The position numbers and the translations under genes were made by a program. From Aldrovandia affinis (lineage: Eukaryota; Chordata; Actinopteri; Notacanthiformes; Halosauridae), in NCBI GenBank assembly GCA_029706075.1, contig JAINUG010000192.1, positions 1,282,001 through 1,346,000 on the forward strand: a DNA stretch of 64,000 nt, given 5' to 3'. The notes under the pieces were generated by a model. The model did not search any database and had not been told where the DNA came from. It saw only the letters and a program-made list of their open reading frames with translations. This document shows positions 28,086-64,000 of this stretch, piece by piece; within the stretch, counting starts at the first letter, position 1, and the number at the start of each line of letters is the position of its first letter.

Positions 28086-28160
28086 CTGTGGGGGACAGAG
28101 GGATTAATAGGTACCCACTCTCCAAAGGAGTCTTAGAACCCCTGCCATAAGACCACTTAC

Positions 28161-28437
28161 CAGTAGGGGTCAGTAGTGTTTAGTGAATGGCCTCTTCAGT
28201 AGAGGTCAGTAATGTATAATGAATGGCGCTTGCCAGTAGGAGTCAGTAGTGTGTAGTGAATGACACTGGCCAGTAGGGGTCAGTAGTGTTTAATGAATGG
28301 TGCTGGTCAGTAGGGGTCAGTAATATGCTGTGAATGACACTGGCCAGTAGGAATCAGTAGTGTTTAGCAAATGTTGCTATTCAGTAGGGGTTAATAGTGT
28401 GTGGTGATTGGTGCTGGCAAGTAGGAGTCTCCATACT
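28161..28437. repeat. 37-bp minisatellite filling a gfra2 intron
   Basis: Seven to eight diverged units of CAGTAGGGGTCAGTAGTGTT followed by TAATGAATGGTGCTGGT occupy nearly all of the 355-bp intron between the exons at 28441 and 28085. On the gene strand the array begins within a few bases of the GTAAGT donor. Its far edge (28155-28160) carries another perfect GTAAGT. Confidence 0.9.
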
Positions 28438-28440
28438 TAC

Positions 28441-28581
28441 TCAGGCAGGTATTATCTCTAAAATCCCTGAGGAAGGCCTCACACTCTTCCTCATAGTTCC
28501 CACTCCCCTTGCAGGTGCACCACAGCGAGATTGTTATGTTGGTGTAGCTGGCGTCCACATAGTTTGGGGTTATGTCTGATC
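28441..28581 (-). CDS. gfra2: gfra2 exon, domain D3 core (141 nt)
   Basis: It encodes [20 protein letters not shown], then [20 protein letters not shown], then RDNTCL. The human counterpart reads FDMTPNYVDSS...[36 protein letters not shown] and the WC-C-GSGN-EEC-FL pattern are hallmarks of GFR-alpha D3. NITI is a candidate N-glycosylation site. The acceptor is AATGCGCAG and the donor A|GTAAGT is near-perfect. A 37-bp minisatellite starts within a few bases of that donor and fills most of the following 355-bp intron. Confidence 0.94.
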
Positions 28582-30551: not shown

Positions 30552-32024
30552 CGGGCACGTGAATGCGTGTATATGCGTGCGCCAGTGTGTGTGTTTGTAT
30601 TTGTGTATCTACTACATGGAGAACACAGTAAATATGTTATCTGTCAATCATCCTCTACCCACAATGCAGCCGCTGAAAACATGGTATTCTCCATCGAGAT
30701 TATTTTTGCTCTCTAAATTTGGAATGACTGATCATGACTGTAGGCCCATCCCATTGCTGAAACATCCTCCGTCGATTCAGTAGAGGCCCAGAAATCACAC
30801 TGGTCCACTGGGTCTGAGCGGCTCAGAGGCAGGCCACCTGAGGACGGTCAAAGCCCGGCTGAGAACTGGAACAACAGCACCAGCGGCCCGGACTCGCCTG
30901 ACACCAGTCTGATCCAAGCGTCTCCAAGCACGTCTCGTGCCCAAATCAAAGAGAGACCCCGTCAGACGGAGACTCAAAATGAAGGAGGCAGAAGTCACAG
31001 GGGGCACGTAAGTCCTCGCTGCCACAGCATTGTTCAACAACAGAGACGGCTCTTAACAGCGCACACGCTGTCTGCAGTCATTCACCTTAAACAAGAGCGA
31101 GAACCCATGGACAGCCAGTGTGTCCACTGAAGGACAGTCCTAAACAGGATACTGCCACTAAGGACACATATAGATGCATATAAACGGCATATAAACGGCA
31201 TATAAACCTGACATAAGCTTCATATAAAGCTTGTATATCCAACTATGTAGGCAGAACGGTTCTCTATGCTGGACTGCACTGTGCTGTAAAACTTCTGCTG
31301 GGGGAAGCCAGCATGAGCAGGGCTCTGTCAGACTGGCCACGGGCCTTCATTCTCCAGTGCTGCGCGCCGGCGATTAAACGTTCTGGGAGGAGAGCTCGTT
31401 TCTGGCTGTGAGCCCACTGCGTGAACAGGCTCCGTCGCGCATGCGCGCTTCGCTCTGCCCGCTGCGTAAACACACTGTAAACACAGACGGGTTTCCCGAG
31501 GGCAGGTCAGTCCCTCACTGACCTTCAGTCGTGCTGTGCTGAACGCCGCTGACCCCCTTCTGCTCGCTCGCCTCCGGATCGATAATTGATGAAGCAGCGT
31601 GGCGTTCGCACGGACATGCGCGGACAGCATTCAAATTGAAAATTGGTACCAAATGGTGTAAGGTGAATGTGTGCATGGATGCCAGCTCACTGTAAGGTAG
31701 GTAAAGTAACTAGTAACCCCTGCGCTTTCGTAATGTGCCATTGGATCTTGTATGACCATTGTGGTAATTCTTTATTTGGCCCAGGGGAAGATTGCCCCAT
31801 ACTGGCACACCAACAACACTTCCAGCAGCAACTTTGCTTTCCCAGGAGGTCTCCCATCCAAATAAAGCCCTGTCCTTAGCTTCAGCAGTTTGTCATGGGA
31901 AGGGTGCAGGGTGGCATGGCTGCTCGATCGATTGAGTGAGTGAGTGCACCCAGGCCTGCAGTACCATTCCAAATGGAATCAATCTCAAAAGCCCAACCCC
32001 TGGTTCCACCATATATATAGACAC

Positions 32025-32097: not shown

Positions 32098-32904
32098 AGC
32101 AATCAATACAATTCTGAGTGAGGTGTTTCTGAACTGTTTCTAATTATGTGTTTTGCTCTGACATCTACAATCATACTTTAAGATTACTCACACCGACAGA
32201 AAAGTATTTTTCAGTACCTTCATGAAAAAACCCATCAGGAACGAATGCCAAGTCATTTCCCACTTGCAAGTACTGAAGGTCCTGCCAGTGGTGATACAAA
32301 CTGGTGCTACAACACAACAATGCAAACAACTACAAACAGGTCCTTAACTGTGCTTATCCCTCTTTGTCCTCTGGGGGGGAAGAGGCCAGTCACTGAGAGA
32401 CGGGTGCCAATCCTCATTACATGAACGGAAACACAGCACAACACTTCTCAGGTATCGTCCTGTTTGAACTGCCATCCCAATTACTTAGCCTGTCACTGCA
32501 CTAACTGTGTGGTTCCTTTCTGAGTCCGCAGTCATTTCCAGGCCTGAGTCATCATTTCCCGAGTTAAGTAGGTGCTGATGGCAAGCTGAAGCTGCAGTCT
32601 GGGTGTGGTGTGGTGTTGCCATGTAATGCATTAGTGTACCACCACAGCGTGTCCCTCTCTCGGCTACAATAGAGAATCCTGTGATCTTGGCTGTGCTAAG
32701 CAAATAATATATTACACTTTCAAATTAGACTGTTAATAATGTATCTGCTAGGCTTTGACCCTTTAGACGGGTTACCTGTTTAGTTTGCTCTGTTCATAGC
32801 TGGCACAGTTCTTACCTTGCACTGCTGTTAGATTGTGTGCACTGTTGTTAGTGTACATTGTGCTGAGTAAACTGTGATTAGGTTAGGTTAACTGCTGTGT
32901 ACTT

Positions 32905-33785
32905 TCCTCAGTGTACCCTGTGTTTAGTGTGCACTCTCCTTAGTGTGCTCTGTGTTTAGTGTGCACTCTCCTTAGTGTGCCCTGTGTTTAGTGTGCACTC
33001 TCCTCAGTGTGCACTCTCCTTAGTGTGCCCTGTGTTTAGTGTACACTCTCCTTAGTGTGCACTCTCCTTAGTGTGCTCTGTGTTTAGTGTGCACTCTCCT
33101 TAGTGTGTCCTGTGTTTAGTGTGCACTCTCCTTAGTGTGCCCTGTGTTTAGTGTGCACTCTCCTTAGTGTGCCCTGTGTTTAGTGTGCACTCTCCTTAGT
33201 GTGCTCTGTGTTAATGTACCCTCTCCTTAGTGTGCCCTGTGTTTAGTGTGCACTCTCCTTAGTGTGCCCTGTGTTTAGTGCACTCTCCTTAGTGTGCTCT
33301 GTGTTAATGTACCCTCAGCTTAGTGTGCCCTGTGTTTAGTGTGCACTCTCCTTAGTGTGCCCTGTGTTTAGTGCACTCTCCTTAGTGTGCTCTGTGTTAA
33401 TGTACCCTCTCCTTAGTGTGCCCTGTGTTTAGTGCACTCTCCTTAGTGTGCCCTGTGTTTAGTGTGCACTCTCCTCAGTGTGCTCTGTGTTTAGTGTGCA
33501 CTCTCCTCAGTGTGCCTTGTGTTTAGTGTGCACTCTCCTTAGTGTGCCCTGTGTTTAGTGTGCACTCTCCTTAGTGTGCCCTGTGTTTAGTGTGCACTCT
33601 CCTTAGTGTACTCTGTGTTTAGTGTGCACTCTCCTTAGTGTGCCCTGTGTTTAGTGTGCACTCTCCTTAGTGTGCCCTGTGTTTAGTGTGCACTCTCCTT
33701 AGTGTGCACTCTGTTTAGTGTGCCCTGTGTTTAGTGCACTCTCCTCAGTGTACTTTGTGTTTAGTGTGCACTCTCCTCAGTGTAC
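32905..33785. repeat. 32-bp minisatellite next to a gfra2 donor site
   Basis: About 27 units of TAGTGTGCCCTGTGTTTAGT followed by GTGCACTCTCCT, with variants that lack TG or carry TTAATGTACC. On the gene strand the array starts about 12 nt after the donor of the 33797-34145 exon. No protein coding is supported. Confidence 0.95.
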
Positions 33786-33796
33786 GCCGGGTGTAC

Positions 33797-34145
33797 CTGC
33801 AGAGCGGGTCAGAGCGGCAGGACCTCCGGAGCTCCAGGCAGTTGGGCCGCGCCTTTTCCTCGAAGGAGCAGGAGGGAACGATGGTCTGGCGGCGCCGCTC
33901 GGCGCAGGCCTGGTGCCGGCACGAGCAGAACAGCAGTCGGTAGCTGAACTCGGTCGGCACGCGCTCAAAGAACTGCCGCAGGGCCTTGTGGCAGCGCTTG
34001 CGGCTGCAGGCCTCCGTGGGCGGGGACTGCATGGGCGTGTCCCGGTAGCAGATGGCGATGTAGGAAGAGCGCTGCCTCTTGCAGGTGTCGTTCAGGTTGC
34101 AGGCCTTGGCGGCATCCAGGCACGGATTGCAGAGCCTTCCCGTGT
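33797..34145 (-). CDS. gfra2: gfra2 exon, domain D2 (349 nt)
   Basis: This is the largest exon and encodes the ligand-binding second cysteine-rich domain: DTGRLCNPCLDAAKACNLND, then CKRQRSSYIAICYR, then KRCHKALRQFFERVPTEF, then LFCSCRHQACAERRRQTIVP, and finally CSFEEKARPNCLELRRSC and CRSDPLC. Cysteine spacing and the RxxCHKALRQFF and CAERRRQTI blocks are diagnostic of GFR-alpha D2, the surface that contacts GDNF-family ligands. LNDTC carries a possible N-glycosylation sequon. The acceptor is CACTGCTCAG at 34146 and upward. The donor is AG|GTACAC, weaker than consensus, and a 32-bp minisatellite begins about 12 nt into the intron. The exon enters and leaves in phases that fit both neighbours. 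Confidence 0.95.
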
Positions 34146-46424: not shown

Positions 46425-47516
46425 CTGCTCAATAGTGCCAGCCAGCTCGTATGTTCCCACTTAACTCTCTACTTCCTTACTCTAAGCAGCGCTAATAAAA
46501 CATGGTTAGGACAGTGTGTGACATATCCATTCATTGGTGCCAGGCCTGAAGTAATTAAACCATTTAAACTACTGGAGCTCCTTAGCTTGACACCATTGCA
46601 TCACAGTCTGTCCTAATCGTGTTTTATCAACCTGACTCTACAGTACATACTGCATATACAGTATGTACTGAGGTTCTGGTTAGCAACAAAAGTTTCTGGT
46701 GACACATTGCCATTTATGAATATCCATAAAGAGGCCTGCCCAGGGACATAGCATCCATTGGGACCAGTACTGTTCTTGGTCATGCCCTGTTCACAAATAT
46801 TCATGCGACGCATCAAATTGGAACATTTCTGGCTTCAGTGGTAGCGGAGACAGGAGACTAAGATCGCGGAGCTGGCCGTCTCTTTAGTGCAGAGAAAGTG
46901 TGTCAGCTCTGAGCACGTTGCGCGCAGTGCTCCAGATGGGCATTGTGTTGTGCGCGATCGCCATGCGCCCAGAGCTCTGTAAGCACAGAGGCGTACCGCG
47001 GAAGCTCCACGCGGGCCAGCGGCGTGTTTCTGAAACACTCCTTGCAGACGCAGAACTCCGCTCATGAGTCACGACAGCAGGCTTTTATACGATTATCTGT
47101 TTCATGTACTTTCCCCCTCGGAGGCAACAGAAAAGAGGCCAAAAATAAATCCTAAAAGTAGTCACATAAAAAAGTGCACCCTGCACACCCAGATATGAAA
47201 CTTCTCTGCTGCATGGAATATCCCACTTTCCCAATCCACAGCTTCTAATATCAGCGGCTCTGTAATCCTTCCCAAAGTCCTTCAAAACAGCTTCACTTGT
47301 TCTCTTTTGTAGTTATTTTTTTCATTCTGCCTGGATGCAGACTTTGGGGATAGACTGACAGCACAAATGCAGGTGCGTATAACTATGACAGTGCTCATAC
47401 ATATTTACCAAAGATGGCCTCCAGCTAAACTGTGGGTGGTGTTAAATCCGGACAGCTAGAAATCTGTTCCAAAATATATTTTTATTTACACTTGATGTGC
47501 TCTGTCACCGCCACCC
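46425..47516. other. gfra2 intron, no element recognised
   Basis: AT-rich sequence with a short CpG-richer part (46860-47060). No coding homology. Confidence 0.5.
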
Positions 47517-48418
47517 CACTCCAGCTCTGACTCTCTGTGACTCTGTGTCCCCTCTCCAGCTCTGACTCTCTGTGACTCTCTGCTCCCTCTCCAGCTCTGA
47601 CTCTCTGTGACTCTGTGCCCCATCCCCAGCTCTGACTCTGTGTGACTCTGTGCCCCATCCCCAGCTCTGACTCTCTGTGACTCTGTGCCCCCTCTCCAGC
47701 TCTGACTCTCTGTGACTCTGTGCCCCCTCTCCAGCTCTGACTCTCTGTGACTCTGTGCCCCCTCTCCAGCTCTGACTCTCTGTGACTCTGTGCCCCCTCT
47801 CCAGCTCTGACTCTCTGTGACTCTGTGCCCCATCCCCAGCTCTGACTCTCTGTGACTCTGTGCCCCCTCTCCAGCTCTGACTCTCTGTGACTCTGTGCCC
47901 CCTCTCCAGCTCTGACTCTCTGTGACTCTCTGCCCCCTCTCCAGCTCTGACTCTCTGTGACTCAGTGCCCCCTCTCCAGCTCTGACTCTCTGTGACTCTG
48001 TGCCCCCTCTCCAGCTCTGACTCTCTGTGACTCTGTGCCCCCTCTCCAGCTCTGACTCTCTGTGACTCTGTGCCCCCTCTCCAGCTCTGACTCTCTGTGA
48101 CTCTGCCCCCTCTGCCCCCTCTCCAGCTCTGACTCTCTGTGACTCTGTGCCCCATCCCCAGCTCTGACTCTCTGTGACTCTGTGCCCCATCCCCAGCTCT
48201 GACTCTCTGTGACTCTGTGCCCCCTCCCCAGCTCTGACTCTCTGTGACTCTGTGCCCCCTCCCCAGCTCTGACTCTCTGTGACTCTGTGCCCCCTCCCCA
48301 GCTCTGATTCTCTGTGACTCTGTCCCCTCTCCAGCTCTGACTCTCTGTGACTCTGTGCCCCCTCTCCAGCTCTGACTCTTGGTGATCTGTGTCCCCTCTC
48401 CAGCTCTGACTGAGACTA
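47517..48418. repeat. 35-bp minisatellite, about 26 copies
   Basis: The plus-strand unit is CTGACTCTCTGTGACTCTGT followed by GCCCCCTCTCCAGCT, with variants CCCATCCCCAG and CCCCTCCCCAG. Because 35 is not a multiple of 3 and the units lack minus-strand stops, all three minus frames stay open. This gives long artificial reading frames with ESQSWRGGTE-like repeats. It lies in the intron downstream of the gfra2 linker exon, about 240 bp from its donor. Confidence 0.95.
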
Positions 48419-48660: not shown

Positions 48661-48744
48661 CTGAGATAATGGAGGCCCGTCGAATCACGTCCGAGTGGCG
48701 ACTGGCGACAGGTTCATACGGGGAGGTTTCATAGAACTCTTCTT
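48661..48744 (-). CDS. gfra2: gfra2 exon, D1-D2 linker (84 nt)
   Basis: The exon encodes EEFYETSPYEPV followed by ASRHSDVIRRASIIS, matching human GFRA2 EEFYEASPYEPVTSRLSDIFRLASIFSG. This acidic linker between domains D1 and D2 is characteristic of GFRA1/GFRA2. The acceptor is a strong polypyrimidine tract ending TTTTTTCCCTGTAG, and the donor is G|GTAAGA. It starts by completing a phase-1 codon and ends in phase 1; at 84 nt its skipping would keep frame. Mammalian GFRA2 is known to make isoforms lacking N-terminal exons, so alternative use is plausible but not shown here. A 35-bp minisatellite lies about 240 bp downstream in the intron. Confidence 0.92.
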
Positions 48745-63460: not shown

Positions 63461-63636
63461 ACTGTGGCTCAGTTGGTAGAGCACAGCGTTGGCAACGCTT
63501 AGGTTGTGGGTTCAATACACTGGGGCCACATATACTGAAAATGTATGCATTCACTACTATAAGTCGCTTTGGATAAAAGCGTCTGCTAAATGGCGTATAT
63601 ATATATATATATATCTGCTAAATGGCGTATATATAA
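63461..63636 (+). mobile_element. tRNA-Ala-like SINE with L2-type tail
   Basis: The head contains the box-A-like TGGCTCAGTTGGTAGAGCA, an anticodon stem GCGTT-GGC-AACGC, and a box-B-like GGGTTCAATAC. A short body follows, then the tail GTCGCTTTGGATAAAAGCGTCTGC. This is the layout of the common teleost tRNA-derived SINE that borrows an L2-LINE 3' end. An (AT)n tract and a second partial copy of the tail end (CTGCTAAATGGCG) follow. It lies in the gfra2 intron beside the junction minisatellite. Confidence 0.8.
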
Positions 63637-63679
63637 ATACAAAATTAAGGTTGAGCATGCCCCAGCCCGGTCCCGCCCC

Positions 63680-63880
63680 CACCCTTTACCTTCTGCCAGC
63701 CCCGCCCTTACCTTCTGCCAGCCCCGCCCCTTACCTTCTGCCAGCCCCGCCCCTTACCTTCTGCCAGCCCCACCCTTACCTTCTGCCAGCCCCGCCCCTT
63801 ACCTTCTGCCAGCCCCGCCCCTTACCTTCTGCCAGCCCCGCCCCTTACCTTCTGCCAGCCCCACCCCCACCCTGCCCCGC
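63680..63880 (-). repeat. 23-bp minisatellite copying the gfra2 exon-intron junction
   Basis: About eight 22-23 bp units plus one decayed unit. On the gene strand each reads GGGGCTGGCAGAAGGTAAGG, which copies the last bases of the gfra2 exon and its donor (GGGGCTGGCAGAGGGTAAGG). Potential donor cuts would follow positions 63849, 63826, 63803, 63780, 63758, 63735, 63712 and 63690; the authentic one follows 63893. The extra sites have AAG|GTAAGG, a better fit to the MAG|GTRAGT consensus than the authentic AGG|GTAAGG. The array is G-rich on the RNA strand. Confidence 0.9.
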
Positions 63881-63892
63881 CCCGCCCCTTAC

Positions 63893-64000
63893 CCTCTGCC
63901 AGCCCCATGTGGATGCTCCAGTAGTTCTGCAGGCACTGCAGCTCCTTCTTCATGCCGCGCTTGCAGTGGCAGTCGTACAGGGGGCTGTCCTGCAGCACCT
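63893..64000 (-). CDS. gfra2: gfra2 exon, end of domain D1 (partial)
   Basis: The minus strand reads [18 protein letters not shown] and then [17 protein letters not shown], almost the same as human GFRA2 ([24 protein letters not shown]...). This is the end of the first cysteine-rich domain. The exon continues past the window edge. It ends in phase 1, GCA-GAG-G, followed by donor GTAAGG at 63887-63892. The first base of the next exon completes GAA. In the DCRCKRG motif the human Arg is His here. Directly inside the intron the junction sequence is repeated eight times (see the minisatellite at 63680-63880), so the donor annotated here was chosen because it alone keeps the conserved reading frame into the next exon. 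Confidence 0.93.

Follow-up and report, generated by a model that had tools for sequence, protein, structure and literature searches.

An exon of gfra2, the gene for a nerve-growth-factor co-receptor, is followed in Aldrovandia affinis by a minisatellite that repeats a 5′ splice site, and the locus raises the question of where this array came from, which of its nine donor-like junctions would make the working message and what, if anything, the other eight do. The assignment of the exon to gfra2 within the window, which is the whole stretch of 64,000 nucleotides analysed here, is supported by its translation, which finds its best matches among GFRA2 chains (6q2o, E = 2e-16); the 35-residue exon piece scores 17.7 bits with the Pfam GDNF domain, short of the cut-off of 22. 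The downstream exons, placed by tblastn with a human GFRA2 query sequence, lie on the same (minus) strand with splice signals that fit, and the exon bordered by the array, which ends with one base of a split codon, joins them in frame, such that the six exons listed in Table 1 form a single open GFRA2-like frame. A cut after 63893 is alone among the nine in joining the acceptor at 48744 with the frame open over all six exons, and it is mainly from this open frame that we infer 63893 to be the authentic donor. The window also contains a weak 5S rRNA match at 31820–31927 on the minus strand (41.7 bits, gathering score 38).

Table 1. Features of the gfra2 locus in the window and GFR-family donors bearing copies of their own junction
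Feature	Position in window	Strand	Basis or remark
gfra2 exon, part in window (whole exon 64207–63893, 315 nt; start beyond window edge)	63893..64000	-	GFRA2 match
Next gfra2 exon, 84 nt, acceptor CCCTGTAG/AAGAAG	48661..48744	-	tblastn, splice signals, open joined frame
gfra2 exon	34181-33797	-	tblastn, splice signals, open joined frame
gfra2 exon	29831-29722	-	tblastn, splice signals, open joined frame
gfra2 exon	28581-28441	-	tblastn, splice signals, open joined frame
gfra2 exon	28085-27910	-	tblastn, splice signals, open joined frame
Minisatellite	63677-63906	-	TRF period 23, 10.2 copies, 89% matches
Eight tandem 22-23 bp copies (last 14 exon bases + donor)	63684..63862	-	sequence
Last base before alternative cuts	63849, 63826, 63803, 63780, 63758, 63735, 63712, 63690	-	sequence
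Extensions from alternative cuts (44, 67, 90, 113, 135, 158, 181, 203 nt)		-	sequence
G-run-rich first intron bases at authentic donor	63872..63892	-	sequence
In-frame TAA, extension nt 69-71	63822..63824	-	sequence; met by all extensions of at least 90 nt
L023, window gfra2 donor			junction copies present
L014 and L016, gfra1-like second-domain exons			best matches to chains named GDNF family receptor alpha and alpha-1
L029, further GFR-family exon			best match alpha-1

The minisatellite crosses the exon–intron boundary at 63893. When the 20-base junction GGGGCTGGCAGARGGTAAGG is searched for with at most three mismatches, it has nine matches in the window, every one inside the array, compared with a mean of 0.01 and a largest count of 1 in 100 shuffles. 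The authentic junction reads GGGGCTGGCAGAGG/GTAAGG, with 63893 as the last exon base on the minus strand, and is cut as AGG/GTAAGG; a unit of the array combines 14 bases from the exon end with the 9 that open the intron. Seven copies are mutually identical over the 20 junction bases, each matching the authentic junction at 19 of 20 positions with GAG to GAA as the sole difference, which improves position -2, and the eighth, innermost copy matches at 18 of 20, having both GAG to GAA and a G to A change at +5. Eighteen of the 20 columns are invariant over the junction and its eight copies. The claim of the preliminary description that the 22-23 bp minisatellite is a copy of the junction is therefore borne out, and its reading of every unit as AAG/GTAAGG applies to seven of the eight but not to the innermost, which reads AAG/GTAAAG. 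A donorless 21-nt block separates the true-donor unit from the first copy, that unit being 44 nt long and not 22-23, while AGGGTGGGGG flanks the copies on both sides, and AAGGTAAGG and AGGGTAAGG are both absent from the rest of the window. UnaL2 LINE 3′ elements are found on the plus strand at 63546–63599, near the array, and at 491–544.

Judged from this match between the copies and the junction, an origin of the array by duplication of the gfra2 exon–intron junction is clear, as had been proposed in calling it a minisatellite born from a coding splice junction. GGGGC is present at exon positions -14 to -10 and again at intron positions +10 to +14, and the 23-nt spacing between the two blocks equals the unit length, suggesting that slippage between them probably started the array. 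The gfra2-like paralog on contig C2278 has the exon end CCGAAG/GTGAGG, so that the array, with its GAA, may preserve the older state, the true junction having changed to GAG more recently, a weak indication taken from one paralog. Short GC-rich arrays can be mis-sized, and a genome DNA search with the array locus returned it once at 100%, the next best match being the gfra2-like paralog at 87%, with no second allele found; an assembly artefact in the presence of the array or in its repeat number is nevertheless very unlikely, considering that the contig spans 1.8 Mb, that there is no N in the window, that the array units vary in G-run length and single bases, and that comparable junction copies are present at other loci.

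Scored with a human weight matrix, the authentic donor reaches 5.06, seven of the copies 7.26 and the eighth 3.46, which upholds for those seven, and not for the eighth, the earlier statement that the copies are better donors than the authentic one; by the same scores the authentic donor is weaker than seven copies and stronger than the eighth. With both strands of the window counted there are 7671 GT sites; 14 of them score at least 7.26, and 7 of the 14 are copies in the array. Seven inner donors that outscore the true donor would favour leakage into the array, which counts against regarding it as near-neutral, the reading that we prefer. They are also in keeping with the proposal that the array is a poison-donor rheostat, in which the inner donors divert a set share of transcripts into messages subject to nonsense-mediated decay (NMD) and the repeat number sets the level of gfra2, a proposal that we consider unlikely in the light of the paralog and family comparisons described below. 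Intronic G runs can act as splicing enhancers of the hnRNP H/F type. In the 40 nt from position +3 there are six runs of at least three G behind the true donor, four behind each of six copies and five behind each of the other two, so that of the nine donors the true one is followed by the densest G runs. Concealment of the inner donors by RNA structure was considered and rejected (folding z = 0.09; 57 of 100 shuffled sequences fold equally well or better).

The consequences of cutting at each donor follow from joining the extended exon to the real downstream exons. The extension lengths given in the preliminary description proved exact, and its TAA was found where it had been placed. After the +44 and +67 cuts the next exon is read in a shifted frame and a stop is met within it, and the six cuts of +90 or more all reach the TAA in the extension. 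It had been stated that the extensions other than 90 and 135 nt shift the frame, which is the case for +44 and +67, but those of 113, 158, 181 and 203 nt reach the same TAA before a shift matters. Any inner-donor cut thus gives a truncated message, a claim that now extends to all eight copies. Each early stop precedes the last listed exon junction by 660 nt or more and still has four or five of the listed junctions downstream of it, and on this basis NMD-prone messages are expected from all eight cuts and would presumably be removed. These early stops are likewise what a rheostat of gfra2 output would need. The extended frames stay open for up to 22 codons beyond the junction before the TAA, which gives some room to the idea that the alternative donors make a functional short secreted or truncated GFRA2 product; such a product is extremely unlikely, however, since the added residues are low-complexity and repeat-encoded and stops at this distance from the last listed junction make NMD the expected fate.

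What is found at other donors of the same family bears on both the near-neutral and the rheostat readings. A PF02351 search of the 1.22-Gb genome gave 27 matches, of which 24 donors were examined after exclusion of three loci (L028, L032 and L033) that we take to be GAS1-like, and the kinase comparison set started from 70 loci, 31 of which were dropped with no donor called, leaving 39 donors. Copies of the donor's own junction, allowing up to 3 mismatches in 16 bases over the 300 nt downstream, are present at 4 of the 24 GFR-family donors (L023, L014, L016 and L029), with 0.03 expected from shuffled junctions, and at none of the kinase donors (0/25 and 0/14, 0/39 in total), the donors having been called near domain ends by the weight matrix, such that some may be wrong. 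The difference between the families has a Fisher p of 0.018 with the discovery case and 0.047 without it, and it is not significant (p = 0.126) when, in addition, the gfra1-like pair is counted once. The counts of 4/24 and 0/39 are in favour of a rheostat, and the loss of significance tells against it.

In the gfra1-like genes the exon end and donor are repeated in tandem with a period of 49 in L014 (around 1824–1930) and of 47 in L016 (reverse complement, around 1824–2086), and in both the first in-frame codon beyond the exon is a stop. The two share 90% identity along 463 nt, a stretch that extends some 108 nt into the intron, so that the copies are probably older than the divergence of the two genes, and a copied region common to both counts for a rheostat. 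Several of the L016 copies read CAA/GTGAGT or are decayed further; those at extensions 43, 90 and 137 have the CAA/GTGAGT form and score 5.13 vs 8.47 at the L016 true donor, a weakening that would be expected if extra donors are tolerated and decaying, and which supports the near-neutral reading and argues against a rheostat. The inner copies of L014, on the other hand, are undecayed, with scores of 8.47 (extension 49) and 8.34 (extension 98), and this counts against near-neutrality. In L029 (reverse complement, about 1600–1805) the exon end with GTGAGT recurs twice more, at extensions 93 and 169. At L031, the gfra2-like paralog on C2278, the donor has a different repeat, without tandem junction copies, which again argues against a rheostat; there, G-rich repeats begin about 4 nt past the donor, with a unit unlike that of the window. 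It is quite unlikely that in this genome genes of the GFR family have time and again made donor arrays out of their own junctions and that these act as poison-donor rheostats, the number of repeats determining what share of receptor messages goes to NMD. Acceptors with an upstream copy number 1 of 19 called in the GFR loci (L013) and 0 of 34 called in the kinase loci, the scan having taken in 24 GFR loci and 41 of 50 kinase loci. At L035, a third-domain gfra1-like exon on the same contig as L014, the acceptor TGCAG/GTACAGTG is present in three tandem copies at about 1440–1525, a triplication that was found by eye and that the acceptor rule missed.

The genome as a whole is rich in tandem repeats (as at five loci, for example). 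Three AGGTRAG motifs spaced by 8-38 nt give 8765 matches on both genome strands vs 4405 for the reversed pattern, where matches overlap and single large arrays give many, so that 8765 does not give the number of loci. This genome has many tandem repeats that contain donor-like strings, which counts for the near-neutral reading. Within the window, an array edge lies within 20 nt of 3 of 6 gfra2 donors and of 0 of 5 acceptors, vs 0.0106 per random point, an adjacency that was noticed first and tested afterwards. An array spans the donor or starts within 20 nt of it at 6 of the 24 GFR donors (L014, L015, L016, L023, L024 and L031), and the same criterion, applied to 50 kinase loci with 25 donors called, finds 2 of these 25 (L052 and L084) as well as two kinase acceptors (L067 and L086). 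With adjoining arrays at kinase donors and acceptors too, we do not propose that minisatellites as a rule lie close to donors. Three other arrays were observed in the gfra2 introns of the window. A 16/32 bp minisatellite of about 890 bp (32896–33796, minus strand) starts about 11 nt after the exon end at 33797, with GTACAC, as in the donor CAG/GTACAC, present in its first units and missing from later ones; a 37 bp minisatellite (28160–28441, minus strand) starts about 11 nt past the donor at the 28441 exon end, and that donor is absent from its units; and a 35-bp minisatellite of 25.5 copies (47514–48411) is found about 250 nt into the intron after the exon end at 48661.

We favour, as the probable explanation, a near-neutral array born from the gfra2 junction, with at most low leakage and with the outermost donor making the working message. 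Under this explanation, a tandem duplication of the exon–intron junction would have started the minisatellite, which would then have expanded, its units being still nearly uniform and each bearing a competent-looking donor. The outermost donor, whose use is suggested by the reading frame, would remain the source of the working message, with exon definition and the adjoining G-run cluster probably aiding its choice, and any use of an inner donor would yield an early-stop message that is expected to be removed by NMD.

A search of titles and abstracts of open-licence papers gave no report of such an array in gfra2 or in another fish gene. The closest known system is human IFI6/G1P3, for which a minisatellite that supplies donors is described, with two downstream repeat units used and three mRNA species produced (PMC4526556); the original minisatellite paper of 1995 is cited there and appears in the reference list of PMC2572611. 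In both genes a minisatellite follows an exon and its units are able to serve as donors, but in IFI6 the extra donors are reportedly in use and give rise to encoded isoforms, whereas the eight extra, putative donors of the gfra2 array all lead to early stops, and gfra2 is unrelated to IFI6. Intron gain by tandem duplication was reportedly described by Zhuo et al. in 2007. Introns are also reported to be gained by tandem duplication of AGGT-bearing segments (PMC4974935). The gfra2 array resembles such events in being a short duplication that copies an AG/GT junction, and differs from them in that the intron already existed and the AGGT copies do not provide both donor and acceptor of a new intron, the frame-keeping acceptor at 48744 lying 15 kb away, outside the array. 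Tandem repeats, minisatellites included, at or near exon–intron boundaries alter the structure and splice sites of recently duplicated human genes (PMC2812944). Those cases share with gfra2 a repeat at the boundary and altered splice sites, but they concern recent human paralogs compared with transcribed sequences, while the gfra2 array is known from genome sequence alone.

A minisatellite that supplies donors is thus already known from IFI6/G1P3, and the gfra2 array is a further candidate case, with the recurrence among GFR-family genes being the part most worth following. The array shows directly how a coding splice junction can give birth to a minisatellite, and it offers a natural test of spliceosomal choice, since its nine donors are almost alike and a working message comes from the outermost alone. 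Additional examples within this gene family and genome would allow the birth and decay of such arrays to be compared.
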